Shown here: in pieces, positions 125 through 18,602 of the stretch
Layout of the letters: each line of letters begins with the position of its first letter
Position numbering within the stretch: the first letter of the stretch is position 1
Virus record (IMG/VR): IMGVR_UViG_3300009155_000336
Coordinates: 1-20,294 of that record
From: a virus
Direction: 5' to 3' (one strand)
DNA length: 20,294 nucleotides
Program-made: the position numbers and the translations under genes
Notes under the pieces: generated by a model
Told to the model about the DNA's origin: nothing
The model's database searches: none
The model's input: the letters and a program-made list of their open reading frames with translations, nothing else

Positions 125-988
125 TTATTTTCTGTTCTCTGCTAAGAATTTTCTTAAGTCAAATCCTTCTTGTAAAGCTTCAGTAGCTTTTTCTTTGGCT
201 GGAGCCTCTTTCTTTTCTTTACCTGAGAATTTTTTATCAAATTCTTTTCTTAATTTTTCTTCTGCTTTTCTTAATGCTGCAATATCTTTACGCATTTGTT
301 TAACAGCTTTTTGATCGATATGCTCAGCATGCTCTCCTTCTTCTAAAGATCCTACTTTAGCCTCTAGTGCTTCGTAAACTCTTTTCATCTCTTCCATTTT
401 GTATTTATGAGCTGCTTCGTTAGTTCCGTGTTCAATCTCTTTCATCAATTCTTCAATTGATTCATATTTTGGAAGAGGTTTTGCTTCTTCTATATTAGCT
501 TCTCCTTCTGGGATGTTTAATTCTGGTGCTGGGTTTGGTAGTTGATTTGGATCGTCTTCATGGCCCATTGTGTAGTCTACATTCTCTTCTCCTAAGGCTC
601 TTTGAACCATTTCTACTAATTTTCTTTCTTTATCTGTCATTTTATTTTCATTTAACTGTTCGTGATTTACTTCCTCTTGTACTTCTTCTTCTTTCTTTTC
701 TTGTAAATATAGTTGATTGTCGTGAATCATTTGACTTACTAAGTCGTAATTTTCTTCTTGGAATTGCATTAACTCTTCATCCGATAATGGAGTACCATCT
801 TCATACTCCGCTGCTGCAATATATGCATCTACAAAGTCTGGATAGTCGTCTGTATCTATTCCGTCGATCTCAACTGATCCAACGTTTACTGGTTTTCCAT
901 TAAAAGAAACTTCTTCTTTAAGAAGCTGTGCATTTTTTGTAAGTTTATTCTCTGTTAAGAATGTTCTTAAGTTAAAATTATCTGCCAT
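125..988 (-). CDS. Tagged, acidic/coiled-coil phage protein with the tag repeated at its C-terminus
   Basis: This 287-residue protein is of unknown function. Residues 1-17 form an amphipathic peptide (FNLRTFLTENKLT) almost the same as the N-terminus of the 194-residue protein at 12146-12730. A third copy, FDLRKFLAENRK, is the very C-terminus (276-287), preceded by ALQE-G. A small domain around 28-95 (VGSVEIDG...DYPDF.DAYI) is of a kind I recall from marine phage proteins. Residues 95-170 are Glu/Pro/Asn-rich linker, and 195-265 is a highly charged Lys/Glu helix likely to form a coiled coil. The ATG at 988 has no Shine-Dalgarno but follows a TATTTATA element. It is the last gene before the terminator. 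The charged coiled coil would suit a head-internal or core protein, but that is inference. Confidence 0.85.
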   Translation of the reverse strand: MADNFNLRTFLTENKLTKNAQLLKEEVSFNGKPVNVGSVEIDGIDTDDYPDFVDAYIAAAEYEDGTPLSDEELMQFQEENYDLVSQMIHDNQLYLQEKKEEEVQEEVNHEQLNENKMTDKERKLVEMVQRALGEENVDYTMGHEDDPNQLPNPAPELNIPEGEANIEEAKPLPKYESIEELMKEIEHGTNEAAHKYKMEEMKRVYEALEAKVGSLEEGEHAEHIDQKAVKQMRKDIAALRKAEEKLRKEFDKKFSGKEKKEAPAKEKATEALQEGFDLRKFLAENRK

Positions 989-1019: not shown

Positions 1020-2066
1020 TTATTTAAACCCTTTTATTCTTAAATACTTTGTACTTCTATTAAAATTACTGTCAAAGTAAATATCTCCTGATTCTACTCC
1101 TTGTTTAAATTCCTCTCTAGTATACATTTTATACTCTCCTCCGATTATAATCATAATATAATCTACATTCTTTGCTTCTGTATTAAGAAAGTAATTTACA
1201 TACCAGGTTAAAAGCTCTTGATTAAGTTCTTCTGCTGAATCTAGTTTTGAAAAAGTGGTATTGAATTCTTTTTGTAATAATTTTTCTACTTCTTTTCTAA
1301 GTTCTGGGTGTTGTTTAATTATTTCAGATACTCTTACAGGAACACTTTTTGACCTACCCGATTGCTGTGTGTTTGGGTCTAGGCTATCAAGAGAGCTGTA
1401 TAAATCTTCCAAAGAATCCCATCCTCCTAATCTTCCTGCTCTTCCTTTTAGTTCTATAGATTTACCTTCTAATCCAACATCCCCTATATCTAACTTCTTA
1501 CCCTCTTTCCCTAATAAAGCTAAAAAAGCCTCTCCTTCTCCAACTGCTTTTCCTCCTTTTGCAGAACGACCTGCAGAGAGTAAGCTAACAAGAAAGCTTT
1601 GAGGTAGTTTGGTAACTGCTTTTCCTACTGAGATTATATTACCTGTTTTACCTAAATCGCTAAGTTTTATTTGGTTATCTGCATTACTTAGTACCTGTGT
1701 AAGTTGTGTTTCTAGTCCCGGTACAGTATTTATCAGTCCAAAAAGCTCAGCCTCAGAGGCATCTAAACCTTTCGAGTGTATTTCTTTAGAAATAAGTGAA
1801 CCCAGTTTTTTACCTTTCTCTTGAATAGAGTGATATATTTTTTGAATAAAAGCACTATCTAGCTCTGATCTTCTATCCTGTAGTAGTTTAATAAGATCAT
1901 CAGCACTGTATTCTGCTTTCTCTTTAGGTTTTTCTTCCTCTAATACTACTCCAAATTCAGAATAAATCTCTTTTAATATTTTCATATCGGCAGGATTATT
2001 CATATCTGGGTATCCTTTTTTACAACGGAAGGCCCATTCTGCAACTATTTTATTTACTACGCTCAT
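1020..2066 (-). CDS. Tagged protein with a PD-(D/E)XK nuclease-like core
   Basis: This protein has 348 residues. The N-terminus VVNKIVAEWAFRCKKGYPDM (residues 3-22) combines a short tag-like helix with a conserved-looking motif (AW/F-RC..GYPDMNN) of a kind I recall from marine phage proteins. Residues 40-140 are mostly helical. Around 176-213 a pattern G-E-G-E179, G-D196, I-E205-L-K207 followed by GRAGRLGG fits the E...D...(E)xK arrangement of a PD-(D/E)XK endonuclease fold. The region 300-348 looks like a small alpha/beta module (YIMIIIGGEYKMYT). The ATG overlaps the upstream stop as TAATG, so it is probably translated by reinitiation after the 537-residue gene. The nuclease assignment rests on motif spacing only and could be wrong; the gene itself is secure. 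Confidence 0.8.
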   Translation of the reverse strand: MSVVNKIVAEWAFRCKKGYPDMNNPADMKILKEIYSEFGVVLEEEKPKEKAEYSADDLIKLLQDRRSELDSAFIQKIYHSIQEKGKKLGSLISKEIHSKGLDASEAELFGLINTVPGLETQLTQVLSNADNQIKLSDLGKTGNIISVGKAVTKLPQSFLVSLLSAGRSAKGGKAVGEGEAFLALLGKEGKKLDIGDVGLEGKSIELKGRAGRLGGWDSLEDLYSSLDSLDPNTQQSGRSKSVPVRVSEIIKQHPELRKEVEKLLQKEFNTTFSKLDSAEELNQELLTWYVNYFLNTEAKNVDYIMIIIGGEYKMYTREEFKQGVESGDIYFDSNFNRSTKYLRIKGFK

Positions 2067-3679
2067 TAAAGTGCTTCTGGTGTTTCTGGTTCTGTTCCTA
2101 CCTCTTCTTCACCTGCTGGTGTTTCTTCTGCTCCAAATTCGGGTGCTGGTTCTCCTCCGGCTTCTCCACCTGGAAAGTCTCCTCCACCACCGCCTCCGGC
2201 TGCTGTATCTGCTCCGAATTCTTCTCCACCTGGTTCTTCACCGGTTGTGATTGGTCCGTTTTTAAGTATATCGTTTAATTTATCTAAAGCTTGCTGGTAG
2301 GCTGAAGTACCTCCCAAAAAGTAATTTTTACCTTCTATTTGAGCATCAAAATCTTTTCCTGTCCATTTTAAATAAAATGCCTGCCCATTTTTAAGAACAA
2401 CTTGAAAGGTAGATGGTTTTGGTGCTACCCATTTTACGTCTTCTATAAACTCATCATACTCATTGGTAAGTAAGCTGGTTAATGTTTTCTTTACTGTTGG
2501 AAATTTTCCTAATATTTCTTGTGTAGATGTTTTAAGAACTGTTCCTTCTTCTTCTTGTAGAACTTCAATATATGCTTCAAGCATTAATTCTCTCAGTTCT
2601 TCTTTAGTTATTTTTTTAGAAATAGTATCTCTTCTATTTTTTAAATACTTATCTGTTTTATCAACTTTTCCATCATTATTAACATCGTCATCTTCTTTTC
2701 CAACTCCGTCTAATGCTTCATCTACACCTTCTTTAAAAGGTCTTGGACAAGGTGTACCTTTAACATGGGTATGTCCACATCTCCCGCAATGTGTAGCTTT
2801 CTTTTCATTTAATGCCAATGCAACTATTCTAGTTTCTTGATTATCGTATTTTTCTGATTCTGTATATCCTGCTACTGCGTCTAGATAATCTTCTGCTTTT
2901 GTTAGTTTTGATTGAACCCATGCATCTAATTGATCATCATCTCCTAATAAATCCATCATCTTACTTGCGTTTGATTGAATAGATCTTAATTGTGCTTTTG
3001 CCATTGAAGATTCATCATCTGGCTGTAAGTTATGATTTTCACCTATATTTTTATTTATTTGTGATTCATCATCAGGAAACTGCTGTGTTGCTATATCATC
3101 ATATTGAGTATCTGTTGGTTCTCCTACATACTTTTTCATTGCATCACTTAGTTTATCTTCTAGTTCAGGAGTAGGTAGAGAAACAGTATTACCTTGTGTT
3201 ATCACGAAGTCTACTAGCTCTAATGGTTCGTTTCCTAGATCTAATACTATACTTTCTGTATCTGGGGTTAGGTCAAATTTAAAGAGGTCTTGTCCTTTAT
3301 TATTACCGTATTTTACTTTGATATTAAATTTATTAAGTCCTATTCCTGTAAGTCTGATGTCAACTACTTCATCTCCTTGTGCTCGTAATACTTTTAGTAG
3401 AGACTTACCTACTGTTTTACCAATAGCTGTTGATTCTTCTGCTGTATATTTTCTTACTTCTTCCGAGATACTTTCTTGTGTTGCTGTTGCTTTTGCTAAA
3501 GTTTCTTTAGCAGCTACTAAAGCATCTTGTGCTGCTGTTTTCTCTAAAGGAGATTTAGCAGTCTGTAGCTGTTTTGTAGCGTCTTTTATCTTTTCTTGTT
3601 GAAGTGCTATTGCAGATTTCTTAGCTTGTGCTTCTGCAGGTGTCATTTCTTCTGTTACTATTCTTATTAGTTTTTTCAT
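2066..3679 (-). CDS. Modular tagged virion-type protein with zinc knuckle, EF-hand loop and internal tag
   Basis: This 537-residue protein is a mosaic. Residues 1-12 are a tag ([12 protein letters not shown]) and 13-82 an Ala/Lys/Gln-rich coiled coil. Residues 95-165 form a compact alpha/beta domain. Residues 226-275 are a helical segment (MAKAQLRSI...[19 protein letters not shown]) of a type I recall from marine T4-like phage proteins. Residues 298-311 hold a zinc-knuckle-like [14 protein letters not shown]. Residues 332-343 are a calcium-loop consensus [13 protein letters not shown] second tag-like peptide lies at 359-378 ([17 protein letters not shown]). Residues 405-475 are another small domain, and 480-537 a Gly/Glu/Pro low-complexity acidic tail. 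The leader holds TATCTTTAG just before the ATG. A precursor cut into pieces during head maturation is plausible but not shown. Confidence 0.85.
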
Positions 3680-3714: not shown

Positions 3715-4377
3715 CTATTTACAGTGATAATTTAGGTATCTCTGTAATGCTTTTGCATAATGAGTACCTTTATCTTCAAGCCCTGCTTTAGCTGCTCTTA
3801 CTTTTGTACAAGTTAATTTACCTAACCTATCTTTTACTATTCCTGGTTGAACAGGATCATCTATTCCTTCCTCTATTGCTATTGTAGGATTTGGAGTTAC
3901 AAACCCCGGTTTCCTCATAATAGTCTTTGCTAGTGCCTGGTTTACTTGACTAACAAATGGAATATTAATACTACTATTTTTATCCTTAACAACAAACTCT
4001 TGATACCTTTTTACAAAGCTTATAAAAGCTTCTTTTTTCTTAGATAACCTATCAAAGAAAGTCATTAATTCACTCGATGTTATCTCTTTTCCGTTTCTAG
4101 GATCATTTAGTCGATCAAAGAAGTGGTTACCAAATTCTACATCTACCGGATCTAATTCTGAATCAGCATATCTTTCCACAGAGTCTAGTTCTGAAGAGGT
4201 TATCTCTTTCATAGCTAATATCTCTTTTCCTGCTTTGAAAGCTGCTTTGAAAGCTTTGCTTCCTTTTCTAGCAGGCTTTTCTCCTCTTTCTTGCTTTGCA
4301 TGTATATTAGCCCATAGTCCTTTAGATTCCTCTTGAAGAACTTCCTTAACTATCTCTCTTATTTGATTTTTTTTCAT
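3715..4377 (-). CDS. Tagged mosaic phage protein with KGLWANI and LTCTKVR modules
   Basis: This protein has 220 residues and unknown function. The tag MKKNQIREIVKEVLQEE (1-17) leads into a basic KGLWANIHAKQERGEKPARKG segment (19-39). Residues 80-165 form a small domain (FFDRLNDPRN...SINIPFVSQVNQALAKTIMRK). The C-terminal 184-220 (DRLGKLTCTKVRAAKAGL...YLNYHCK) is a separate basic module. All three remind me of pieces found in different combinations in marine phage proteins. KEITSSEL occurs twice, at 57-64 and 97-104, 40 residues apart, with different codons. The start overlaps the upstream gene by 32 bases, but the tag at the N-terminus supports this ATG. It is probably a head or virion protein, by context only. 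Confidence 0.85.
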   Translation of the reverse strand: MKKNQIREIVKEVLQEESKGLWANIHAKQERGEKPARKGSKAFKAAFKAGKEILAMKEITSSELDSVERYADSELDPVDVEFGNHFFDRLNDPRNGKEITSSELMTFFDRLSKKKEAFISFVKRYQEFVVKDKNSSINIPFVSQVNQALAKTIMRKPGFVTPNPTIAIEEGIDDPVQPGIVKDRLGKLTCTKVRAAKAGLEDKGTHYAKALQRYLNYHCK

Positions 4378-4990
4378 TTTCTAGAGTATAATAGTAAATA
4401 TTTTCATTACCTTTTTCCATTGTCCATTTATCTGAGACTGATTCACAGAACCATTCTTTATCATCAATCATCCAATCCGGTCTATCTGGGAATGGTTGAG
4501 TTACAAAAGACATATCTCTCCACATTAACCTATTATTAGGTTGGAGAGTAAAGTTTCCATTATCTAATTTAATTAGATGTGCTGCTTTATATTGTGTAGG
4601 TTCGTTAGAATATGGATTGTTATACCAGTCAAAAGTCATGATATAATTTCCCCACTCTTTACTTCCGTCTTTAAATATTGCTTTTACTCTTGATTGGAGT
4701 AAGTAATCGTATACTGTGCAGGATACTTCATATCCAAAACAATCCCATAATTGTAAATGGTCTAAAGCCATTTTTGGTGCATCATCCTTCCAAGCGAGCA
4801 TATGAATTGGAACTCTTGATCTAACAGCTCCTTCATCTGTCATTACATGAAATGTAATAGCTCTTCCTCCTACAGATTGTGTACCAAATACTATTACATC
4901 TTGCATACCTTCTCTTCCGTCATGCTGGTAGAGATGTTCTGTTCTCATCTTAGCATAAAAATGGGGTATAGGTGTGTTTAGAGTTGGCAT
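4346..4990 (-). CDS. Conserved-type marine phage protein of unknown function
   Basis: This protein has 214 residues. The N-terminus MPTLNTPIPHFYAKMRTEHL and internal segments such as LDHLQLWDCFGY (77-88) and KAAHLIKLDNGNFTLQPNNR (134-153) match, from memory, a protein family widespread in T4-like marine phages with no assigned role. It is rich in aromatic residues and looks like a single beta-rich globular domain, with no signal peptide or membrane segment. It carries no N-terminal tag, unlike its neighbours on both sides. Its ATG overlaps the stop of the 109-residue gene as TAATG, so the two are co-translated. Its 3' end overlaps the next gene by 32 bases. A structural or assembly role is a guess from position. 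Confidence 0.85.
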   Translation of the reverse strand: MPTLNTPIPHFYAKMRTEHLYQHDGREGMQDVIVFGTQSVGGRAITFHVMTDEGAVRSRVPIHMLAWKDDAPKMALDHLQLWDCFGYEVSCTVYDYLLQSRVKAIFKDGSKEWGNYIMTFDWYNNPYSNEPTQYKAAHLIKLDNGNFTLQPNNRLMWRDMSFVTQPFPDRPDWMIDDKEWFCESVSDKWTMEKGNENIYYYTLENEKKSNKRDS

Positions 4991-5319
4991 TATTTTTTAT
5001 TTTTTATAAGTAGCTCTCCCAATACCTCTAATCTACCTACTTCTCTTTGAAATTCGATTTGAGACATGTCTAATGAGATCTTCTTATAAGTATCCTCGTA
5101 TTCTTTCTTTGCTTTTTCAAAATCAAGATTTCCTTCAGCTGCTTTTTTATAATATGGTAATTTAACTTTAAAATGATGCCATGTTAGTAGAGCTAATCCG
5201 CCTTTTTCCTTAGCATTATCAGCAATCTTTTCAGCTCCTTTTTCTCGAGTTTCTGCAAACTGTTCAATTACCTCGTTAGAGTCAGTTATTGCTTCTTGTA
5301 GTAATTGTGCTAGTTTCAT
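4990..5319 (-). CDS. Small tagged helical phage protein
   Basis: This protein has 109 residues and is almost entirely helical and highly charged. The tag MKLAQLLQEAIT ends in LQE-A, the closest match in this window to the T4 capsid-targeting peptide with its (I/L)-x-E cleavage site. The body (FAETREKGAEKIADNAKEKGG..., then a Lys/Glu/Tyr-rich helix and EFQREVGRLEVLGELLIK) is of a type I recall from marine phages without known function. The leader AAGGAAAGTAAT is one of the few Shine-Dalgarno-like sequences here, and it lies inside the end of the 45-residue gene upstream. The stop overlaps the next ATG as TAATG. It is possibly an internal head protein. Confidence 0.85.
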   Translation of the reverse strand: MKLAQLLQEAITDSNEVIEQFAETREKGAEKIADNAKEKGGLALLTWHHFKVKLPYYKKAAEGNLDFEKAKKEYEDTYKKISLDMSQIEFQREVGRLEVLGELLIKNKK

Positions 5320-5320
5320 A

Positions 5321-5458
5321 TTACTTTCCTTGTCCTTTATAAAGCTTTCTATAATTTTTAGAACTCTTCAATTTTGAAGTTTTAGATTTTGCATGAACTC
5401 CAGGTCTTGATACCTTTACTTTTTCTACCTTAGCTGGAGAAGGTGCTGCTTTTGCCAT
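5321..5458 (-). CDS. 45-residue basic peptide
   Basis: A short frame from ATG 5458 to TAA 5321 encodes 45 residues, beginning MAKAAPSPAKVEKVKVSRPG and ending YRKLYKGQGK. It is very rich in Lys/Arg/Ser with almost no acidic residues, so it probably binds nucleic acid or an acidic partner. The SRPGVHAKSKTSKLK...KNYKKLY(K/R)GQG style is familiar to me from very short basic proteins of marine T4-like phages. It is followed after one base by the next ATG (TAATATG), and its 3' end supplies that gene's ribosome-binding sequence. A TATTTATT element lies 26 bases upstream. It may act in head DNA condensation, but this is unproven. Confidence 0.75.
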   Translation of the reverse strand: MAKAAPSPAKVEKVKVSRPGVHAKSKTSKLKSSKNYRKLYKGQGK

Positions 5459-5484
5459 AAATTAAGTGCTATTTACTGTTTAAA

Positions 5485-5492
5485 AATAAATA
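5485..5492 (-). promoter_or_regulatory. TATTTATT element upstream of the 45-residue gene
   Basis: The coding strand reads ACTATTTATT in the 48-base gap between genes, 26 bases before the ATG at 5458. It is one mismatch from the octamer at 1005-1012. A short inverted repeat (TTTACT/AGTAAA) spans it, but T residues precede rather than follow the stem, so it is not a terminator for these genes. Confidence 0.3.
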
Positions 5493-5506
5493 GTAAAAAA
5501 AACTTA

Positions 5507-6091
5507 TTACGAATCTATATGTGAATTTAAGTATTTTAGGTAATCTTGTAGCTTAGTTGTTAACTCTGCCTTTACTTTACTGCTCGTAGTATTCCAGTCT
5601 TCAATGTCTCCCTGCTCTGTTACAAAAGTATCTGAGTTGTTTATCATTTCTAAAGCCCAAGCTTCAATGTCTTTTGCAAAAGCTTTTATGCCTCCTTGCA
5701 TCATTGTCTTTTCGTACTGCTCGTATAACCCTGCTTTTCTTAACTGTGCTTCATAATCTATAACACAATCAAAGCACATTTTATGTACCTTATACATTTT
5801 TTGTGCAAGGTGATGTTTCATAGATCCTCCACATTTTGGACAGCCTAGTGGTATTTGTAATGCTTTTTTTGCACTATCCAGCTTTGTTATATTCTGTCTT
5901 ATCCCGTTTTTGATAGTCCAGGTTCTTCCACTCTCTTCCCAAATATCTCCCTCCTCATGCATTTCGTATGCTTTGGAGTATCCTACACCCTGTGTAGTAC
6001 TATCGCTAAAATTTTTATTGACTAAATTCCTAGCTCTATTAACATCTTTTGATTTGAATTCCTTTTTAAGTAAGCTCTCGCCCATAACCAA
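5507..6091 (-). CDS. Zinc-finger phage protein of unknown function
   Basis: This protein has 194 residues (192 if translation starts at the second Met, 6085). Four cysteines in two CxxC pairs (C84, C87, C106, C109: CPKCGGSMKHH...MCFDC) form a probable zinc-binding site. Upstream, a motif G-(D/E)-IWEESGRTWTIKNGIRQ (48-66) and the N-terminal NKNFSDSTTQGVGY are of a pattern I recall from conserved marine phage proteins. The C-terminal third is helical and charged. The gene overlaps the end of the HAD gene by 26 bases (20 with the second start), so the two are translationally coupled. No catalytic motif is visible; nucleic-acid binding is a reasonable guess only. Confidence 0.85.
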   Translation of the reverse strand: MVMGESLLKKEFKSKDVNRARNLVNKNFSDSTTQGVGYSKAYEMHEEGDIWEESGRTWTIKNGIRQNITKLDSAKKALQIPLGCPKCGGSMKHHLAQKMYKVHKMCFDCVIDYEAQLRKAGLYEQYEKTMMQGGIKAFAKDIEAWALEMINNSDTFVTEQGDIEDWNTTSSKVKAELTTKLQDYLKYLNSHIDS

Positions 6092-6653
6092 GTTTTTTTA
6101 ATTTATTTATAACCGATGAAACATCTCCATCTTTACATTCTATTGCTATTCCTCCTTTAGAAGCAAATGCCTCTAGATTAGAAGGTTTATCATCTATTAA
6201 TATAGAATTTTCATTTGCAAAATCCGACTTAGCATCTCCGAATCTAAAAATTACCGGTGGTGCTGGTGATAGATGATTTCTTACCCATAGTTTTTTACCT
6301 AGCCTTGAGGTATCATCCTCAGATGGTGATGTAAGTAGCTTTGGATTATATGGTTGAATAAAGTCCCACAATACTTGACCGTGCGGCATCCAAGGCATTT
6401 CTGACCAGAACTCTAATCCTATGTGTTGGTCAATAAATTTCCAGAACTCTTCTGTTCCTTCTAATTTATCAAAGTGTTTAGGCCTTGTTACTTGTTTAAT
6501 TACTTCTTTTGAGTAATACTTTGGACCTTCTTTCCTTAATAAAGTTACAAATCTCTTTTCAAAGTCTGTTAACACTCCATCCATATCGCAATAAAGCTGA
6601 TATTTAGGTATGAAATCTGACTCTTCTAGTAATAAGTCTGTTAAATCTCCCAT
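6066..6653 (-). CDS. HAD-superfamily phosphatase, 5'(3')-deoxyribonucleotidase-like, tagged
   Basis: This protein has 195 residues, close to the size of small HAD nucleotidases. Motif I is YCDMDGVLTDF (nucleophile D23, acid D25). Motif II is the LLTSPS stretch (T108/S109), motif III the lysine of GKKLW (K120/K121), and motif IV ILIDDKPSN (D154, D155). The fold and the order match nucleotide phosphatases of the 5'(3')-deoxyribonucleotidase type, which dephosphorylate nucleoside monophosphates; the true substrate cannot be read from sequence. The N-terminus MGDLTDLLLEESDF precedes the HAD core and looks like the (I/L)-x-E tag found on neighbouring proteins. A weak AAGG precedes the ATG. It follows the 903-residue gene by 12 bases. 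Confidence 0.85.
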   Translation of the reverse strand: MGDLTDLLLEESDFIPKYQLYCDMDGVLTDFEKRFVTLLRKEGPKYYSKEVIKQVTRPKHFDKLEGTEEFWKFIDQHIGLEFWSEMPWMPHGQVLWDFIQPYNPKLLTSPSEDDTSRLGKKLWVRNHLSPAPPVIFRFGDAKSDFANENSILIDDKPSNLEAFASKGGIAIECKDGDVSSVINKLKKLGYGRELT

Positions 6654-6665
6654 AACCTTTTTATT

Positions 6666-9377
6666 TTATATTGATTGTTTTATCCCTAAAGCCGGCATTC
6701 TATTACGCCATATTGATAGGATTTCTTCTCTCTGTTCTGGTGTAATATCTTGAGCGTTTAAGTATCTATCTACTACAACTTTAAGTGGTAGTTTTTGTTT
6801 CTTAGCTCTAAAATACATTCCTTGTAGATTTGCGTCTACTTCTTTTTTTAATTTAAAGTAATCTGCTATTGGTTTTTCACCTGCTCTTATCTTATCTCTT
6901 TTTGCTAAATCACCTCTCATTACTTTAGAAGGGTTTGTAGATACTCCTCCTTTATTATGTGTTAGGTGTTCAATTTCATGTCTGAAAAGATCTTTTAAAG
7001 TCATTGAAATCTCTTCCCAAAAATCTGGTAGTAATTCTGGATCAATAGCAATATCTACTATAATAAAATCTCCATCATCATCAAAGCCTGCTCCTGTACT
7101 TTCTAAGACTTCCATTTTACCTGTACCTGGTGTTAGTACTAGAGTTCCTTCTACGTCAAACTCTACATCTCCATTTGAATAAGATTCTTCAAATCCTATA
7201 CTCTTTTCTCCTGCTTCAAATGCTTCTTTCCAGCCTCTAAATAACTCTGATGATGCTTGGTTACTTATCTTATCATACCTTCCTTCTGCCATAACTTGTT
7301 CCCCTTTTTTAACTCCATTCTTAATACCGTCTTCCCAGTTTCTAAATGTAATATTACCTCTTAAATAAGCTTCTTTTTCTATTTCTTGTAAGTAATCGTC
7401 TTCATTTGTATTGGTAGTAGCTGCTAATCCTTCAAGTCTTCCTTCTATATTCTGCATATGATGAATCATCTCATGAGAGAATGATCTACAAACATCTTTT
7501 GGGTGTCTTCCCATTACGTACAACACTACTTCTTTACTGTTTGGATCATAGTAAGCTGTTCTACCAAAGAAATCATTTGCTTGATCTTCGTCATATCTGA
7601 TTTTTACCTCCGGAAGTGGTGTAATATTCATTTTTTCATCTAACATATACTCTAAAAGGGATCCTATATATGGAGTATAATCAAATCTCTCTTGCTCTAC
7701 TCCCTCTGGAAGATCTTTTTGCTTAGGAGTATAGTCGTAACCTACTTGGCTTATTGTTCTATTTGATATAACAACTTTATCTTGTAAAAATTCTATATTA
7801 AATTCAGTGCGATCTATATTTTTAGTTAATTCATCGTATAAATGCTCTAACTTAGCTCTATCTTTTGAAGGTATAGAGGCAGATGGCATGACAGGTACTC
7901 CTGATGATGCTTCTTTAACTACTTTTGGGAAAAAACTTTCAAATACTTCATCTACTGTGTTAAGCATTTTATCTTCTATTGAAGGTTCTTCCTGTGGTGT
8001 TACAATACTTATTATTTCCTGTTTATCTTCTTTTGATATAACTGATGGAATCCACTTACCTGATACTAAGTACTCTTCTGATTTTCTTATTTCAGTTGCA
8101 GAAAACTTATCATCTTCTTTTGCTACTATTACTGGAAGTTCTTTTATTTCTACTTTTGGATATTTACCTTTATTTTTATCGAAATAACTAAACTTAGCTC
8201 TTTCATCTGCCATTGTACCTGTAACAATCTTATCTACTTCAGAGTGGTTTTGATCAACCCAGTCATAAATGTCTTTAATCGGAGTAACTGGGCTTATAAT
8301 AATTTCTACCGGTGTTGCTAGGTATTTTGAATATATTTCCCAAATAGCTTTGGATTGTTCAGCGGTAATTTTTACACCTTCTCTTATTTTTGATCCAATA
8401 AATATAATTAGTTTATCTGCATTTTGAGATAAGAGTTTAGCATTTTCGTAATGTGCTTTATGAGGTGGTTTAAAACCTCCTGCATATAGTGCTACTGTTA
8501 TGGACTGTTCATCTAACGCTTCTGCAAGTGTTTGTGCTACTTTCTCTAATGCATCTTCCTTTCCTTTTCCTTTAGCTGTTCCAACTTCTCCAGATTTAAC
8601 AGATACCATTGATTTGAATATACCTGCTATTCTGTTTTTAGATCTAGCATTAGTAAGCTTTCTAGCAACATCATCTAATAGGTCTTCAAAAGAACCATCG
8701 ATGTTAAATCCTTGAAATAATATCCTTATAGTACCCCAAGCTGTTGTTGACCACACCTCTTCTCTTGCTATTTCTTTAAATCCTTCAAGTTTTACTTTTC
8801 TTAAAGACAGTTTTACTGATGATAGGTTAAATTCAAACTCTTCACCTCTCTTAAGTTTAGGTACATTTGAAATACCCATTCTTCTAAACACGTCTTGTGG
8901 GTCTTGTTCTAATAGAATTACTTTTGCTAATCCTATTAATATTCCTTGCTTTTCAGCTGGTAGATCTAAAAATGATCCTTTAAATGCATGTTCTTCTTCT
9001 GAAAGTGATATTATATTATCTACTTGTATATACTGACCCTCTTTTCCTACAATTGGATAAAGAACTGAGATTAATTCACCTGAGTTGTAGTATCTTCTTC
9101 CTATATATTTTTCTGATTTAAAAGGTACAATTATGTTTTGTGGTAGAGCTAAAGCTGCATCGATAAGTCTTTGTTTGACCTCTCTTTTATCATCTCCTTC
9201 AAACCAAACAATAATGTCTAAGTCCCCAAAATCAGCTTTAGAACCTGCTTTAACGGACCCTGATAGAGAAGCTTTCTTAAAGCCTAGTATTTTACTTAGA
9301 ACTTCTTCTACGTACTTGTTAAATGTATTTTGTACATCCCCTCTTTCTATTCTATTTCCTCCTGCTACTCCTGACAT
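6666..9377 (-). CDS. Four-module polypeptide: nucleotidyltransferase + adenylyl/cytidylyltransferase-like + two zincin metallopeptidase modules
   Basis: This protein has 903 residues. Module 1 (about 10-275) is a Pol-beta-type nucleotidyltransferase with GS (40-41), GDLDI (D52, D54) and a third Asp at 120. Module 2 (about 292-470) is a HIGH-type nucleotidylyltransferase, GGFKPPHKAH with H306/H309, and a FSATEIR (425-431) matching the second family motif (ISSTxxR-like). Module 3 (about 505-690) is a zincin: SHEMIHH (H635, E636, H639) with a downstream EKEAYLRG glutamate. Module 4 (about 697-903) is a second zincin: RHEIEHLTH (H800, E801, H804) with KKEVDA downstream. Linkers carry (L/V)-x-E-A/G sites (TLAEA 284-288, VVKEA 486-490, VMAEG 696-699). 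The modules look like separate enzymes joined in one chain, possibly a precursor cut later. Substrates are unknown. It starts one base after the previous stop. Confidence 0.85.
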   Translation of the reverse strand: MSGVAGGNRIERGDVQNTFNKYVEEVLSKILGFKKASLSGSVKAGSKADFGDLDIIVWFEGDDKREVKQRLIDAALALPQNIIVPFKSEKYIGRRYYNSGELISVLYPIVGKEGQYIQVDNIISLSEEEHAFKGSFLDLPAEKQGILIGLAKVILLEQDPQDVFRRMGISNVPKLKRGEEFEFNLSSVKLSLRKVKLEGFKEIAREEVWSTTAWGTIRILFQGFNIDGSFEDLLDDVARKLTNARSKNRIAGIFKSMVSVKSGEVGTAKGKGKEDALEKVAQTLAEALDEQSITVALYAGGFKPPHKAHYENAKLLSQNADKLIIFIGSKIREGVKITAEQSKAIWEIYSKYLATPVEIIISPVTPIKDIYDWVDQNHSEVDKIVTGTMADERAKFSYFDKNKGKYPKVEIKELPVIVAKEDDKFSATEIRKSEEYLVSGKWIPSVISKEDKQEIISIVTPQEEPSIEDKMLNTVDEVFESFFPKVVKEASSGVPVMPSASIPSKDRAKLEHLYDELTKNIDRTEFNIEFLQDKVVISNRTISQVGYDYTPKQKDLPEGVEQERFDYTPYIGSLLEYMLDEKMNITPLPEVKIRYDEDQANDFFGRTAYYDPNSKEVVLYVMGRHPKDVCRSFSHEMIHHMQNIEGRLEGLAATTNTNEDDYLQEIEKEAYLRGNITFRNWEDGIKNGVKKGEQVMAEGRYDKISNQASSELFRGWKEAFEAGEKSIGFEESYSNGDVEFDVEGTLVLTPGTGKMEVLESTGAGFDDDGDFIIVDIAIDPELLPDFWEEISMTLKDLFRHEIEHLTHNKGGVSTNPSKVMRGDLAKRDKIRAGEKPIADYFKLKKEVDANLQGMYFRAKKQKLPLKVVVDRYLNAQDITPEQREEILSIWRNRMPALGIKQSI

Positions 9378-9378
9378 A

Positions 9379-10287
9379 TTATACTTTATATTGTGTTAAG
9401 TTTGAATTATCCGGTAAGAACTTACCTTTTAATCCTAATCTTTCTTGGTTTTCTATCCAATATGACTGTAAATCTTCTGGTATATCACATCTAGTACTAT
9501 CTAATATTTTTAAATAAGTATCATAAACAGCATGTAAATCCTCCGGAGATAGGCCTGTTTCTAACGTTTCTATCAGTTTAAAATAGTCTCCTATTGTATC
9601 TCTATCTAAATCTAAGCCATATGCCTTATTTAAAAGGCCTATTGCTTGTTGTGGTTGATTTGCTACAATCTCTTGTGACTCTTTATCTTTTACTCCATAA
9701 TTGTGAGAGAATGTATATCCTTTCTGTGAGAATAAAGATACAAGTAATTGTGTTCTATGTAACCCTTTTACGTTTCCTGAATAGGTAGCTGAGTGGTAAG
9801 CAAATTGTAACCAATCTACATCTCCTACATTTACATCTATCTGAACGTTTTGCCCTACTACTTCGTTATTCTCATCGTATTGAGGAAATAGTAAGAATAA
9901 AGCTCCTGCAGAAGATCCTTTCACATCTGCTATGATCTCTGTATCAGCTTCTGCAATCTTTTGTGCTATTGCTACAATTACTGCTCTTTTCATTAGCTGA
10001 TCATCCGAAGATGTTCTAGCTCTTTTCTTGAACCCTACAAACAGGTCTTGAACGTGTTTTTCGTCTAGTCCCCAATCCTCTACATTATCAAAGGATGACC
10101 CGGCAAGTGCTAGGTCAATATACCCTGAATAATCTTTTTTCCCTACAGATCCTAAAGTTTTCATTTCTCTGAAGAATGGTTCTGCTTTTGGAAATATAGT
10201 TTTGAACTGCTTAAAGAACTCTAATAGAGTCGGTTTAATATGTTCTTTTTTTATTGGTGCTGTACTATCGAATACGTTTCCTCCCAT
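9379..10287 (-). CDS. Nucleotidyltransferase-like phage protein with altered active site
   Basis: This protein has 302 residues. LGSVGKKDYSGYIDLAL (45-61) resembles the GS...(S)D-x-D signature of Pol-beta-type nucleotidyltransferases, and NVQIDVNVGD (147-156) would supply the third strand Asp (D151). The expected first Asp of the pair is Tyr56, leaving D58, so catalysis may be lost or changed. The segment GNVKGLHRTQLL...KGYTFSHNYGV and the N-terminus MGGNVFD....IKPTLLEFF are familiar to me from marine phage proteins without known role. It is the first gene of the group that continues into the 903-residue enzyme. A TTG-20-TATCTTTA promoter-like sequence lies 17 bases upstream. No tag is visible. 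Confidence 0.8.
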   Translation of the reverse strand: MGGNVFDSTAPIKKEHIKPTLLEFFKQFKTIFPKAEPFFREMKTLGSVGKKDYSGYIDLALAGSSFDNVEDWGLDEKHVQDLFVGFKKRARTSSDDQLMKRAVIVAIAQKIAEADTEIIADVKGSSAGALFLLFPQYDENNEVVGQNVQIDVNVGDVDWLQFAYHSATYSGNVKGLHRTQLLVSLFSQKGYTFSHNYGVKDKESQEIVANQPQQAIGLLNKAYGLDLDRDTIGDYFKLIETLETGLSPEDLHAVYDTYLKILDSTRCDIPEDLQSYWIENQERLGLKGKFLPDNSNLTQYKV

Positions 10288-12145: not shown

Positions 12146-12730
12146 TTATACAAATAGTTTTCTAATTGCTGGGTAAGCATTTACTATTGCTTCTTCTGAT
12201 TTTGCTACTGTTTTTAGTGATGATAATGCTCCTTGAAACCAGTCTGCATGTGATAACTTGTCAAGTGCTGCTGCACCGTATCCAGCTGCCATACTTCCCA
12301 CTACTATAGCGTATACACTCTTTGTTAATATGTCTAATGTTTTTGGATCTTTTACAAAGAAGCCTAAGACTCTTCTAATAGGAGCTTGAAAGTTCTTTTC
12401 ATTGTCATGAGCCCAGTGATGTATCTTTTCTGCAATATCTTCCCCTTTTTTATAATTTAAAAGTTTAAATAATTTTGCAGAGTATTTTGATATAAAGCCT
12501 ACTACTGCGTTTGCTGTTAATACGGCTGCAATTGTAGCAGTTATTATTGCTTCATCTAATTGTTTTGGATCTTTGTTTTTTAATTCTGCTCCAATTGCGT
12601 TAGCAATACCGTTAGCTGCTTGTGCAAATTCCGCATCAAAAGCTGCTTCTTCGTTATCAACCTCCACTATTCTAGAATTGTTAGTTAATTTATTCTCTAC
12701 TAAGAATTTTTTTAAATCGAAATTATCCAT
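12146..12730 (-). CDS. Tagged protein with two hydrophobic helices
   Basis: This protein has 194 residues and unknown function. Residues 1-16, MDNFDLKKFLVENKLT, are the same tag as on the 287-residue protein at 125-988. Two hydrophobic stretches, 60-82 (AIITATIAAVLTANAVVGFI) and 138-156 (SVYAIVVGSMAAGYGAAAL), are long enough to cross a membrane, with a charged middle region (84-135). The second is Gly/Ala-rich. Tag plus membrane helices would fit a virion protein that enters the host envelope at infection, or a lysis/immunity membrane protein; neither is shown. Its ATG lies inside the last codons of the 41-residue gene, and it is the last gene before a terminator. Confidence 0.85.
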   Translation of the reverse strand: MDNFDLKKFLVENKLTNNSRIVEVDNEEAAFDAEFAQAANGIANAIGAELKNKDPKQLDEAIITATIAAVLTANAVVGFISKYSAKLFKLLNYKKGEDIAEKIHHWAHDNEKNFQAPIRRVLGFFVKDPKTLDILTKSVYAIVVGSMAAGYGAAALDKLSHADWFQGALSSLKTVAKSEEAIVNAYPAIRKLFV

Positions 12731-12848: not shown

Positions 12849-13286
12849 TATACGTCTATTACTTTTATTCTACCTGCTTTATCTTGCATTAGGTTATCCA
12901 TTTTAATTGAACCTCCTGGTCCTTCTAAGTCTGGATATATTCCTAGCATATCTGCCTCTTCCATTATATCATCAATTGGAACATCTTTTTCAGATCCTGT
13001 GAAAGGCTGTAGATCTTCCATTGTAATAATTCCTAGTTTTGGGTTTCTAACCTCTACATCGTATATGTATACAAAGTATTTGGTCTTTTGTCCTTTTATT
13101 TGCTGTGCATCTTAATTCTTCTGAATCAGTAGTTACTTTCATTACTTTATCTCCTACTAAAAATACTACTCCATAATCTCCTTCTCCTATGTACTCTCCT
13201 CCTTGATCAACAATGTCGTTAACAAGTTCACTATACTCTTGAGTTGGTGAAATTACTTCTTTTAGTATGTTATAAAGACTGATCAC
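12848..13286 (-). pseudogene. Small protein-kinase-like gene split by a one-base frameshift
   Basis: The frame opens at a GTG (13286) with a tag-like MISLYNILKEVIS, then a glycine-rich loop GEGDYGVVF (34-42) and the lysine strand VMKVT (K50). Around 13111-13117 (coding strand GAATTAAGATG) the frame runs off into a stop at 13047. The next frame continues with coherent protein: YFVYIYDVEVRNPKLGIITM, EDLQPF, then SIKMDNLMQDKAGRIKVIDV at the end, which matches the catalytic-loop Asn and magnesium-binding Asp strand of kinases. Removing one A restores a 145-residue protein. At the usual catalytic Asp, five residues before the Asn, there is Ser, so it may be a pseudokinase. The break could be sequencing error, a true mutation or programmed +1 frameshifting. 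The restored stop overlaps the next ATG. Confidence 0.75.
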
Positions 13287-13726
13287 TATTGAAATCTAAT
13301 TCTAGGGTAGTAGTACCTATCACCATCATCATCCCCTTCTCTTGTTGTTTGTTTACGGTCGATTGTGTATCCGTTATCTTCTAAATAGCTAAGTATATTG
13401 TTAAAATCTTCTTCAGAAGGATCTTGCTTTATTGTTAATTTAATTTCGTTATAGGCTGGGTTAAGACTAACGCTAACGTCATAATCTTGAAGGTCAAGGG
13501 TCTGTTTAACAAATTCTTTAATCTCTAAAGCTGTTAGAGCTCCTTCTTCTTCGTTTACAGGAGCTTCTTGTTCCTTTTCACTATCTCTATCTACAATTCC
13601 CTTTAGTATATTATTCAGTTTAGTACTGTCGAACTTATCGTTATGTGGTACTAGCTTTCCTTTTCCATCCGGTTCGTATCCTCCTACTATTTCACGTATT
13701 AGTTCTCTTAGTTCAGATTTTTTCAT
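13286..13726 (-). CDS. Tagged acidic phage protein
   Basis: This protein has 146 residues and unknown function. The tag MKKSELRELIREIVGGYEPD (1-20) is the classic form of the peptide shared through this window. A Glu-rich linker (45-65) leads to an alpha/beta domain, about 65-125 (LTALEIKEFVKQTLDL...VSVSLNPAYNEIKLTIKQ...ILSYLEDNGYTI), and a C-terminus rich in Asp, Tyr and Arg. The leader is A-rich (AAAAAAAATAAATA) with no Shine-Dalgarno. The TAG stop overlaps the GTG of the kinase-like gene by one base. The tag plus one compact domain suggests a packaged or head-associated protein. Confidence 0.85.
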   Translation of the reverse strand: MKKSELRELIREIVGGYEPDGKGKLVPHNDKFDSTKLNNILKGIVDRDSEKEQEAPVNEEEGALTALEIKEFVKQTLDLQDYDVSVSLNPAYNEIKLTIKQDPSEEDFNNILSYLEDNGYTIDRKQTTREGDDDGDRYYYPRIRFQ

Positions 13727-14487: not shown

Positions 14488-15189
14488 TTACCAGTATCCG
14501 CTAAAGTTTCTACTACCTCCTAAGGACTTCCAATATCTTCCTATATTACAGGCCCAGTATCCTGGTTTTGTTTTATCTTTTTTAGTAGCACATTGATGTC
14601 TAGCTGCAAAAGAAGATCTAGCTCCTGGTTCATCTATCTTAACATTCAATCCTGTTGTACCTCCAAAAGAAACCTTTACTACCTTTCCTTTTTTATTTTT
14701 AGTATAAACATAAAATTTTTTAGAACCACCTCTTTTTGGTTTATTTAAAGGAACATCTTTACCTCTATATTCTGCCTCTTGAAGACTTTTCCAGGCTTCA
14801 AATGCTTCTATATCGTATACGTTTCTTTGATTGTCATACCCGCATTTGTGGCAAAGGGCTGGATTATCATCTTCAGGTGTTGTCTCCCAATCGTGTTTAC
14901 ACTTCTTACAGATAATCTCTTGACCTACTTCTTCATCGACCATTGGAAGGTCTAAAGGTACTTTTTGTCCTTCATACATTCCATATTCTCCAATATCTGT
15001 TGTTTCTAGTAGTAGAATATCTTGTCTACTTAATACAATTTTACCGTCTCTAAAGGCTTGTCTTGCTTCAGCAAACAATTGTATAAACGAGTCAGAGGAG
15101 TACCTGTAGACACATTCAGATAGTGTTAGATCATTATCTAAATGGTACTGAAGGTTTGGTAATCCAACTATTTCTTGTAATCTTATCAT
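14488..15189 (-). CDS. Zinc-ribbon protein with conserved marine-phage C-terminal domain
   Basis: This protein has 233 residues. The N-terminus MIRLQEIVGL has an LQE site like the tag. Residues 20-88 are helical with a DIGEYGMYEGQKVPLDLPM segment. C94, C97, C113 and C116 (CKKCKHDW...LCHKCGY) form a zinc ribbon. After an LQEAE boundary (136-140), the C-terminal domain 141-221 (YRGKDVPLNKPKRGGSKKF, VSFGGTTGL, ARHQC, PGYWACNIGRYW) is of a type I recall across T4-like marine phages (DUF5872, from memory). Its function is unknown. Start and upstream stop overlap as ATGA, coupling it to the GIY-YIG-like gene. Confidence 0.85.
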   Translation of the reverse strand: MIRLQEIVGLPNLQYHLDNDLTLSECVYRYSSDSFIQLFAEARQAFRDGKIVLSRQDILLLETTDIGEYGMYEGQKVPLDLPMVDEEVGQEIICKKCKHDWETTPEDDNPALCHKCGYDNQRNVYDIEAFEAWKSLQEAEYRGKDVPLNKPKRGGSKKFYVYTKNKKGKVVKVSFGGTTGLNVKIDEPGARSSFAARHQCATKKDKTKPGYWACNIGRYWKSLGGSRNFSGYW

Positions 15190-15638: not shown

Positions 15639-18572
15639 TTAGAATAATGCATTCCAAGTTGTTCCGTTGTAATAGTATACTTTACTAGCTCCTGCTGATC
15701 CTGATGCTATTATCATTCCTTCTATTGCGGTTGGTGTTGTTGTTCTTACTGATAATTGTAAAATATCCTTCACCATTAATGAACCAGTTACCTGGAATTG
15801 AGAACCTGATGCAAATACTAAATTACTTCTAGATGCTCCTGTCCCTGTTCCGTTTCCTATTATGAAGGCAGATTGTGCAGATGATGATATATTGTATTGA
15901 CCTTGAACGTGTTGAAAGAATCCTGATGCTACTGTGTTATATCCTTCAGCGTGTGAGTAGTTTGCAGATGCTGTTGTTTCTCTTCCCTCAGCATGTGATG
16001 CATCTCCTTGTGCCCATGTATATACTCCTTCTGCATGTGAGGCACCACCTGATGCTAAAGTACTCTCTCCTTCAGCGTGTGCTGTTATTGCTGTTGCTCG
16101 TGTAGTATATCCTTCAGCATGTGAATAAATTCCTGATGCTATTGATTGTCTTCCTTGTGCATGTGAGTATGATCCTGATGCTATTGTAAGGTATCCTTCA
16201 GCATGTGAGTATGATCCTGATGCTATTGTAGAGTATCCTTCAGCGTGTGAAGATTCTCCTATAGCTTGTGTTGAGTCTCCTTCTGCATGTGAATATCGTC
16301 CTTGAGCTGTTGTACTACTTCCTTCAGCATGTGAGCTTTCTCCTGATGATGTTGTGTCATATCCTTCTGCATGTGAATATATTCCTTGTGCTGTTGTTGT
16401 GTTTCCTTCAGCATGTGAATAAGATCCTGTTGCTGTTGTATTAAGACCTTCTGCGTGTGAAGATTCCCCTATTGCCTGTGTTAGATTTCCTTCTGCATGT
16501 GAGTATAGTCCGTTAGCATATGTGTTGTATCCTTCTGCATGTGAATAGTTTCCGTTTGCATGAGTATTATATCCTTCAGCATGTGAATAAGATCCTGATG
16601 CTATTGCAAAGTATCCTTCTGCATGTGAATAAGATCCTGTTGTAATTGTAAATGCTCCTTCTGCATGTGAATAAGATCCTGACGCTACTGTAGAATATCC
16701 TTCAGCATGTGATGCTAATCCTTTTGCTACTGTAAGCTGTCCTTCAGCATGTGATCCTGTACCTAGTGCTATTGTTTGACTTCCTTCAGCATGTGAGTAA
16801 TTTGCTGATGCTGATGTAGAGAGACCTTCTGCGTGTGAGGCAAATCCTAATGCTGTAGATCCTGATCCTTCAGCATGTGACCATTTTCCTGATGATAAAG
16901 TATAAGCTCCTTCTGCATGTGAGTAGTCACCTGATGCTGTTGTATAGTATCCTTCTGAGTGTGCCCATGCTCCTAATGTAGTAGTATTTATACCTTCAGC
17001 ATGTGATCCTTGAGCAGATGCAACTGTACTACTTCCTTCTGAGTGTGCATAAGTACTTATAGCTACTGTATTACTTCCTTCTGCATGTGCTCCTTCGTCT
17101 TTTGCTATTGTTCCTCTTCCTTCAGCATGAGAATACATACCCTGTGCTTGTGTTTCTCTTCCCTCAGCATGTGACCATGATCCTGAAGATATACTTAAAA
17201 GTCCTTCAGCATGTGAATAAGATCCTGATGCTACTGTCTGTTGACCTTCAGTATGTGAGTAGGTACCTTTTGCTACTGTGGTAGTTCCTTCAGCATGTGA
17301 GTAATCTCCTGATGCTGAGGTGTATAGTCCTTCGGCATGTGCTGATGCTCCCGATGCTACTGTAAATTCTCCTTCAGCATGTGCACCACTTCCTTGTGCT
17401 AATGTATTACTTCCTTCAGCGTGTGCTGCACTTCCTAATGTTACCGTTAAGTACCCTTCTGCGTGTGAGCTATCTCCTGCTGCGTTTGAACCAAATCCTT
17501 CTGAATGTGCAAATGTGTGATTTGTCTGTGTTTGTCTTCCTTCAGCATGTGAATAGGATCCTGATGCTATTGTTGCGTATCCTTCAGCATGTGCTCCGTC
17601 TGCTCTTGCTATTGCTTGGTATCCTTCTGCGTGTGAGTAAGATCCTGTTGCTACTGTTTGATATCCTTCTGCATGTGAATACGAAGCAGAGACTGAGGTT
17701 TTAGTATTATACCCTTCTGTATGTGAATACAGCCCTGTTGTTGTTGTTAAATGTCCTTCAGCATGTGAGTAGTCACCAGCTGATAGTGTATTAAGTCCTT
17801 CTGCATGTGAGTGGTCACCTAATGCTTGCATAAGTTCTCCATTTTCAAGTTGTCCACCTACTGTAAGTGTAGTACCGTTAAAAGTTAAATTTGCTTCTCC
17901 GTTAATAGTTGATCCGCTAGTTGCTGTTAATACATAGTTATCTGTATTATTTGTAATAACAGAACTTAAACTTGCAAATCCTGCAGAAGCTGCATAAGAA
18001 GCAGTTAAAGCGTAAGAAGCAGTTGTAGCTTGTACAGCTGTTGAAGCAGTTATTGCGTTTTGTACAAAAGATGCTGTTAAAGCGTTAGAGGATGTTACTG
18101 CATAAGAAGCAGTTAAGGCATAAGAACCTGTTAAAGCTCTATGACTAAATGAAGATGTTATTGCAAGAGATGAAGTAACATATACTGTATTTATAGTAGG
18201 ATTGTATATAAAACCTGTACTGTCTAATCTTAGAGCTGTGGTCTGTGTTCCGTCTACAAAAGTTACATAATATGGCGGTGTTCCTGTAATTGTATCAATT
18301 ACTGTTACTGCTGATGCTGTTTGTGCGGTCTGTACTGTATAAGTAAATGATGCAGTCGAAGCATAAGAAGAACTAACTATGTTTCTTACGTATGATGCAG
18401 TTGTAGCGTGAGAGGCTGATACTGCATTCCTTACGTATGATGCAGTTGAAGCAAAAGAAGCTGTAGTTGCAAAAGAAGATGTACCTACAAAACTACCGTT
18501 TATATTACCAATTACTGTTAAACTCCCTGAAAGGTATACCGAGCCTGTTATTATAGGACTATCTAAAATCAT
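15639..18572 (-). CDS. Tail-fibre/adhesin-like protein with about 46 SHAEG repeats
   Basis: This protein has 977 residues. Residues 1-110 and 130-205 are shaft-like, with repeats such as TASYA/TASFA and GSFVGTSSFAT. Residues 252-891 contain about 46 copies of a 14-residue unit, SHAEGxxTxAxGxY, with variants SHTEG, AHSEG, SHAQG and HVQG. The G..T/S.A.G spacing resembles the YadA-type trimeric adhesin head, a left-handed parallel beta-roll. The end (QYNISSSAQSAFIIGNGTG, then SGSQFQVTGSL and IEGMIIASGSAGASKVYYYN) is a fibre-type tip without the S74 chaperone. It is probably a long trimeric fibre contacting the host surface. ATG 18572 follows a TATTTATA element. It pairs with the upstream fibre gene, with which it shares modules. 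Confidence 0.9.
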   Translation of the reverse strand: MILDSPIITGSVYLSGSLTVIGNINGSFVGTSSFATTASFASTASYVRNAVSASHATTASYVRNIVSSSYASTASFTYTVQTAQTASAVTVIDTITGTPPYYVTFVDGTQTTALRLDSTGFIYNPTINTVYVTSSLAITSSFSHRALTGSYALTASYAVTSSNALTASFVQNAITASTAVQATTASYALTASYAASAGFASLSSVITNNTDNYVLTATSGSTINGEANLTFNGTTLTVGGQLENGELMQALGDHSHAEGLNTLSAGDYSHAEGHLTTTTGLYSHTEGYNTKTSVSASYSHAEGYQTVATGSYSHAEGYQAIARADGAHAEGYATIASGSYSHAEGRQTQTNHTFAHSEGFGSNAAGDSSHAEGYLTVTLGSAAHAEGSNTLAQGSGAHAEGEFTVASGASAHAEGLYTSASGDYSHAEGTTTVAKGTYSHTEGQQTVASGSYSHAEGLLSISSGSWSHAEGRETQAQGMYSHAEGRGTIAKDEGAHAEGSNTVAISTYAHSEGSSTVASAQGSHAEGINTTTLGAWAHSEGYYTTASGDYSHAEGAYTLSSGKWSHAEGSGSTALGFASHAEGLSTSASANYSHAEGSQTIALGTGSHAEGQLTVAKGLASHAEGYSTVASGSYSHAEGAFTITTGSYSHAEGYFAIASGSYSHAEGYNTHANGNYSHAEGYNTYANGLYSHAEGNLTQAIGESSHAEGLNTTATGSYSHAEGNTTTAQGIYSHAEGYDTTSSGESSHAEGSSTTAQGRYSHAEGDSTQAIGESSHAEGYSTIASGSYSHAEGYLTIASGSYSHAQGRQSIASGIYSHAEGYTTRATAITAHAEGESTLASGGASHAEGVYTWAQGDASHAEGRETTASANYSHAEGYNTVASGFFQHVQGQYNISSSAQSAFIIGNGTGTGASRSNLVFASGSQFQVTGSLMVKDILQLSVRTTTPTAIEGMIIASGSAGASKVYYYNGTTWNALF
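15793..15830 (-). repeat. 38-base direct repeat, copy in the 977-residue fibre gene
   Basis: This stretch is identical to 19090-19127. It encodes the SNLVFASGSQFQ junction after the SHAEG repeats. The surrounding 100 bases (INGNGT and SSSAxSAFII parts) are also similar. Identity at DNA level points to recent exchange or duplication between the two fibre genes. Confidence 0.9.
15900..17819 (-). repeat. 42-base tandem repeat array encoding SHAEG units
   Basis: About 46 in-frame units of 42 bases each encode one 14-residue SHAEG unit. One unit is longer by two residues (near 17690). The SHAEG part is nearly constant, the other nine residues vary. Neighbouring units 16160-16201 and 16202-16243 differ at only 2 of 42 bases, showing recent local duplication. 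Confidence 0.9.
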
Positions 18573-18587
18573 ATCGTGTTATTTATG

Positions 18588-18595
18588 TATAAATA
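18588..18595 (-). promoter_or_regulatory. TATTTATA element upstream of the 977-residue fibre gene
   Basis: The coding strand reads TATTTATA in the 30-base gap between the fibre genes, 15 bases before the ATG at 18572. It matches three other intergenic octamers exactly. Confidence 0.4.
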
Positions 18596-18602
18596 TTTTA
18601 AA

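Follow-up and report, generated by a model that had tools for sequence, protein, structure and literature searches.

This locus raises the question of why a single phage gene should join two types of nucleotidyltransferase and two metallopeptidases, with the same short motif at each boundary between them. The window, as we call the whole 20,294-nucleotide stretch analysed here, carries the gene on the minus strand at 6666..9377 (stop codon included), where it encodes a 903-residue chain of four modules; read on the plus strand, 6666-9377 is full of stops. Flavobacterium phage vB_FspM_immuto (immuto) has a full-length relative with 72% identity. Judging from sequence comparison, we put at roughly 0.7 the probability that the gene encodes a polyprotein that serves as cargo in T4-type head assembly, cut by the S77 prohead protease so that its enzymes are packaged.

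The first module, NT (residues 1-286; 8520..9377, minus strand; predicted fragment 31.8 kDa), is a nucleotidyltransferase of predicted DNA-polymerase-X fold. AlphaFold modelled residues 1-284 with a pLDDT of 91.5, the best Foldseek matches in the PDB were DNA polymerases lambda and beta (E 6e-7), and VIA structure comparison gave Z scores of about 12 to TdT and to Pol lambda, mu and beta. In an alignment of 44 sequences, G40, D52, D54 and D120 never vary and S41 hardly does, with D52 and D54 lying in the catalytic GDLD (residues 51-54; 9216..9227, minus strand). By these models NT has the Pol X palm with its GS and three carboxylates, and template-dependent synthesis is a putative activity. 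The second module, HIGH (residues 287-489; 7911..8519, minus strand; predicted fragment 23.1 kDa), carries the HIGH-family motif GGFKPPHKAH at residues 300-309 (8451..8480, minus strand). Scanned alone, it scores 22.1 bits against PF01467, above the Pfam cut-off of 21, and its family profile picks up PPAT and NMN adenylyltransferase structures in the PDB. HIGH is assigned to the nucleotidylyltransferase superfamily and looks like an adenylyltransferase of the NMN/PPAT type.

The remaining two modules each carry an HExxH motif. Zn1 (residues 490-698; 7284..7910, minus strand) consists of an N-terminal sub-domain of about 65 residues followed by a zincin with the zinc motif HEMIH (residues 635-639; 7461..7475, minus strand), and its zincin fold gave VIA Z scores of 8.3 to Wss1, 7.6 to PprI/IrrE and 6.3 to ArdC. 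Zn2 (residues 699-903; 6669..7283, minus strand; predicted fragment 23.2 kDa) has an invariant HEIEH (residues 800-804; 6966..6980, minus strand) and an invariant E846, within KEVDA, as candidate third ligand. AlphaFold predicts Zn2 as a separate, confident domain; structure comparison identified no fold for it, the Zn1 matches having taken up the lists, and we assign it to the zincins by motif only. Profile searches returned little: the whole chain gave only a sub-threshold PF01467 match in Pfam and no PHROG match, Zn2 on its own had no PHROG match, PDB sequence profiles found nothing for NT or Zn1 and only weak unrelated matches for Zn2, and PF18818 (MPTase-PolyVal) matched one of 27 Zn1 members, at E 0.18, and no Zn2 member. 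The AlphaFold half model of the chain has a low pTM (0.53) and confident individual domains, as expected for domains on flexible linkers.

Three predicted cleavage sites of the form hydrophobic-x-E separate the modules, all on the minus strand (here and below a slash marks the predicted cut or the start of a module). They are L284-A-E/A287 (8517..8528), V487-K-E/A490 (7908..7919) and M696-A-E/G699 (7281..7292), and AlphaFold confidence dips at each, with pLDDT below 50 at residues 287-290 and 487-495 and a dip at 682-701. The loose pattern hydrophobic-x-E-(A/G) also occurs at residues 331, 478, 556, 729 and 757, so its presence alone is weak evidence, and we tested its position before modules instead. 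One look-alike within Zn1, L556-P-E-G559 (7701..7712, minus strand), was considered as a fourth site and rejected, occurring in 8 of 20 relatives against 5.5 expected by shuffling. The original prediction had described a chain joining two nucleotidyltransferase types with two HExxH modules and bearing an (L/V)-x-E-(A/G) site at each boundary. Its four domains are confirmed, the zincin nature of Zn2 by motif only, and the sites, at residues 284-287, 487-490 and 696-699, are real; structure prediction and fold comparison of the kind that it proposed identified the folds of NT and Zn1, while Zn2 emerged as a separate domain with no matched fold.

The comparison set comprised 318 loci, whose junctions were made non-redundant for motif counts. 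Directly before Zn2, hydrophobic-x-E is found at 23 of 23 junctions, in the form hydrophobic-x-E/G (shuffled sequences gave 3.3, maximum 9), and directly before Zn1 at 29 of 37 (shuffles, 10.8). HIGH is preceded by it within 14 residues at all 17 junctions (shuffles, 7.6). In these sequences, the above-chance signal is the exact position of the motif before each module across relatives.

The modules themselves are exchangeable units. The 318 loci differ at the junction points, where modules are missing, extra, split off or in another order. The distinct ORFs of the IMG/VR relatives include HIGH-Zn1-Zn2 (49), HIGH-Zn1 (37), NT-HIGH-Zn1-Zn2 (34), NT-HIGH-Zn1 (21) and NT-HIGH (9), with Zn1 alone and Zn2 alone also occurring. 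Longer chains have extra modules inserted at junctions. The chain of L315/L339 has at least 1,428 residues and contains Zn2, a zinc ribbon, a predicted HAD-like phosphatase, an HD domain, a relative of the neighbour protein described below and DUF6267; the L339 polyprotein (3844-8145, minus strand), in which we noted HAD-like, HD, nucleotidyltransferase and DUF6267 domains, is interrupted near its start by masked bases. Within the one gene, identity to immuto is 93% for NT, 66% for HIGH, 74% for Zn1 and 48% for Zn2, an unevenness expected if modules are exchanged separately. Among named phages, all four modules were matched only in immuto isolates, and Erwinia and Serratia giant phages gave weak HIGH matches. 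Seven metagenome-assembled GTDB contigs with Zn1 relatives (L349-L355), labelled Flavobacteriales, Woesearchaeota and others, are possibly phage contigs binned with their hosts.

The same modules also occur as free-standing genes with short N-terminal tags. Stand-alone Zn2 genes begin MKYIKQFENFLINE/GRYD (L313) and MKYIKMFESFTLNE/GRYD (L314), their tags ending INE/GRYD or LNE/GRYD, and fused chains read VMAE/GRYD or xxE/GRYD at the corresponding point. The gene next to the window chain (9379..10287, minus strand) encodes a 302-residue, second nucleotidyltransferase-like protein with GS..DxD that starts M/GGNVF. In its family, 158 ORFs start M/GGN untagged (a count that is not deduplicated and includes overlapping loci), and all 13 non-redundant members that are fused or carry a tag of 14-18 residues have hydrophobic-x-E/GGN, against a mean of 0.64 and a maximum of 4 in 5,000 shuffles; examples are MISFAKFFKTKQILAE/GGNVF, MIKLTSLLKQILNE/GGNVF and VPINE/GGNVF. 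In L154 the neighbour and NT are fused in one chain, and INE/GGNVF and LNE/SGSAGG replace the start methionine. Since fused, tagged and untagged forms share the same start point, the mature N-terminus would be identical in all three. At the NT-HIGH junction of L120, L121, L127 and L131, the segment between two predicted sites (NKNTSFSRFFAE/S) is an apparent internal tag, similar to the tag that the neighbour gene of these contigs has at its N-terminus (KSSFSSYFKT..LLSE/G).

Similar tags recur across the window, on genes that are all on the minus strand. Profile scans identified an NT5C-type 5'-nucleotidase (6066..6653) that begins MGDLTDLLLE/ESDF. From the ORF list come a small protein starting MKLAQLLQE/A (4990..5319); a protein starting MKKNQIREIVKEVLQE/E (3715..4377), the body of which recurs as an inserted module within polyprotein relatives (L049, L065 and L068); a multi-segment protein with a tag and an internal tag-like stretch (2066..3679); proteins starting NFDLKKFLVENKLTNNSRIVE/V (12146..12730) and MKKSELRELIRE/I (13286..13726); and an ORF starting MISLYNILKE/V (13047..13286). 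The protein at 125..988 begins NFNLRTFLTENKLTKNAQLLKE/E and has a second copy of its tag at the C-terminus, the motif DLRKFLAENRK standing at both ends, which suggests targeting from the C-terminus as well as the N-terminus. A further tagged protein (MIRLQE/I; 14488..15189) has an internal LQE/AEYRGKD. Compared with immuto gene 172, it has a zinc-ribbon segment, CKKCKHDWETTPEDDNPALCHKCG, inserted before the (A/G)EYRGKD module, the immuto protein lacking the ribbon, and both versions keep hydrophobic-x-E directly before EYRGKD (LQE/A in the window, LDE/G in immuto). CDNCGW ribbons like this one also turn up between the modules of other chains.

In both the window and immuto, tag families are common to several unrelated proteins (MKKSxLRxIIKExL; NFDLKKFLVENKLT), and L339 has four consecutive small genes with a nearly identical 20-residue tag ending VLKE, MLKE, VVNE or ALNE. 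The scaffold-like product of immuto gene 204 (L081:13627-14868) has the C-terminus SRWQKLAGIIK, which is similar to the tag at the N-terminus of the gene 188 product (RRMQKLAGIITES); scaffold and tag may thus have a docking motif in common. The end of the window (15639-20294, minus strand) encodes two tail-fibre-like proteins with dozens of degenerate (Y)SHAEG repeats. The 903-residue chain itself begins M/SGVAGG, and no tag was found at this N-terminus. That both NT and its neighbour in the window lack an N-terminal tag is a weak point of the proposed entry into the head; many HIGH-first relatives do carry one (MNSLVKALIQPILE/A). In the window chain, the helix at residues 467-482, followed by site 2, is a candidate internal tag.

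A protease that would recognise such sites is encoded by the relatives. Head genes are absent from the 20-kb fragment that forms the window, and the evidence for the protease comes from elsewhere in the group: immuto gene 201 encodes a T4 gp21-family S77 protease (PF03420, E 9e-35), immuto also encodes a gp23-type capsid protein, and an S77 gene is present in 10 of 10 module-bearing contigs longer than 120 kb. It was found in 6 of 12 shorter contigs and not seen in the other 6, which may reflect contig truncation. T4 gp21 cuts after L/I-x-E (PMC9026906), a rule that the junction motif of the chain matches. Sites for calibration come from the phages' own head proteins. In immuto and in 9 of 10 other contigs, the gp23 homologues carry hydrophobic-x-E close to where T4 gp23 is processed (IVSE/A, IIKE/A, VVAE/A and IVAE/G); the most distant capsid protein (L336) lacks the motif, and the S77 proteases, in immuto and eight aligned relatives, have it near both ends.

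These observations bear on whether the gene might instead encode a polyvalent protein, that is, one multi-domain effector delivered whole, with any processing done by its own zincins before packaging or in the host. Polyvalent proteins commonly join zincins with Pol-beta nucleotidyltransferases and have been proposed to process themselves (PMC5512222), and Zn1 does have a zincin fold. However, the NT junction keeps hydrophobic-x-E in nine complete chains without either zincin module, an argument against explaining the motif by self-processing through built-in zincins. The motif is also carried by tagged single-domain genes of the neighbour family, and it equals the capsid and protease processing sites of these phages. 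We regard the polyvalent-protein reading as unlikely.

We considered it still less likely that the chain acts uncut as a multi-enzyme protein of the infected cell, with the glutamate motif being a helix cap or linker feature that travels with each module. Many relatives, like the window chain, have no N-terminal tag on their first module, and loose matches to the motif also fall inside domains. A travelling structural feature would nevertheless be hard to square with the distribution of the motif, which is absent where a module is N-terminal and untagged and present nearly always where anything precedes, the upstream sequences being unrelated. The residue preferences are also informative: P1 is E at 61 of 62 junctions and never D, though D makes up 8% of the flanks, P2 is free, and P3 is L, M, I or V at all but about ten. 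As an internal control, the linker within Zn1, which holds the LPEG look-alike, has no motif enrichment. Two features of P3 count against a protease site: a hydrophobic residue is missing at 8 of 37 Zn1 junctions, where K or T is mostly found, and M is common at the Zn2 site yet lies outside the T4 rule and the calibration sites.

Least probable is that the chain is injected as a toxin-like effector against the host. In its favour, some Zn1 relatives weakly match metallopeptidase effector profiles (best E 0.005 for M91 and 0.009 for PipA); against it, Zn1 is closest in structure to zincins of the DNA-repair and anti-restriction type (Wss1, PprI/IrrE and ArdC), and NT and HIGH look like nucleotide enzymes. 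The original prediction had offered a polyprotein of packaged enzymes and a toxin-like effector side by side. The first is well supported by comparison, through modules that swap at the sites, separate tagged genes with the same motif and the protease gene in relatives, whereas nothing specific favours the second, as any of the modules might have phage DNA, host metabolism or host proteins as its target. Its observation of similar tags on neighbouring proteins holds, and the search that it suggested, for relatives with separately encoded tagged modules, turned up the stand-alone tagged Zn2 genes described above.

Under the cargo-polyprotein explanation, the chain would be made in one piece and would enter the prohead core via its tag-like segments. 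The phage's own S77 protease would then cut it after hydrophobic-x-E during head maturation, releasing the polymerase-X-type transferase, the HIGH nucleotidylyltransferase and the metallopeptidases Zn1 and Zn2, which would stay in the head with the DNA and probably be delivered at infection. Cutting into separate enzymes in the assembling head is made probable by the junction motifs and by the relatives with separate genes or other module orders. We infer the cutting, packaging and injection, and likewise the targets of the enzymes; roles that would fit the predicted folds are the processing of DNA ends or gaps, chemistry on NAD or CoA, and proteolysis of DNA-bound or host proteins.

A broader proposal, which we hold with even odds, is that a large and diverse T4-type clade ships a mix-and-match enzyme kit as polyproteins, with head-protease sites as universal connectors, such that any module can be tagged, internal or separate with the same mature N-terminus. 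If so, these chains would be to tailed phages what polyproteins are to RNA viruses, with unpacking inside the prohead, and the T4-type head-maturation protease would both mature the shell and separate cargo enzymes encoded as one chain. This would explain how large, quickly changing sets of injected enzymes are assembled. It would also provide a sequence rule for predicting cargo, whose mature N-termini would follow hydrophobic-x-E, and open many unannotated multi-domain phage proteins to interpretation.

The closest isolate is immuto, whose gene 183 has the same four modules, neighbours and junction motifs, differs more in Zn2 than in NT, and is annotated as the NMN adenylyltransferase NadR, which describes one domain only. 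Its cultured host, Flavobacterium sp. LMO8, is available, making a direct test possible. The open-access literature yielded no virion proteomics of immuto-type phages and no multi-enzyme chain joined by exchangeable head-protease sites. In T4, internal proteins reach the head by way of short N-terminal capsid targeting sequences, and in IPIII an Asp at the cleaved position prevents processing and leaves targeting intact (PMC9026906). The T4 internal head proteins and Alt (PMC9026906, PMC3012670) share with the present system a short N-terminal tag ending in hydrophobic-x-E, a gp21-family protease (PF03420), a gp23-family capsid and diverse cargo behind interchangeable tags. T4 cargo, in contrast, is encoded as one protein per gene with terminal propeptides and is tagged at its N-terminus, whereas here one chain holds several enzymes separated by sites, and that of the window has no N-terminal tag. 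Prohead maturation in SPN3US and phiKZ (PMC10052503, PMC9026906) likewise has a gp21-family protease that cuts many packaged or ejected head proteins after a Glu-ended motif. For SPN3US, the excerpted account (PMC10052503) has cuts that take off N-terminal propeptides, or the C-terminal propeptide of the protease itself, and the separation of several enzymes of one chain is not among them. The polyvalent proteins of phages and conjugative elements (PMC5512222) resemble our chains in having many unrelated enzyme domains, frequent Pol-beta transferases and zincins, extensive mosaicism and proposed delivery in early infection. They differ in that a built-in zincin is proposed to process them, whereas the junctions described here carry the head-protease motif, also in chains without zincins. 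By analogy, then, the chain is a protein that would work like the T4 internal proteins and that overlaps with the polyvalent-protein concept, which foresaw multi-domain injected chains (PMC5512222), and what appears to be new relative to known systems is a multi-enzyme chain whose junctions are predicted head-protease sites.
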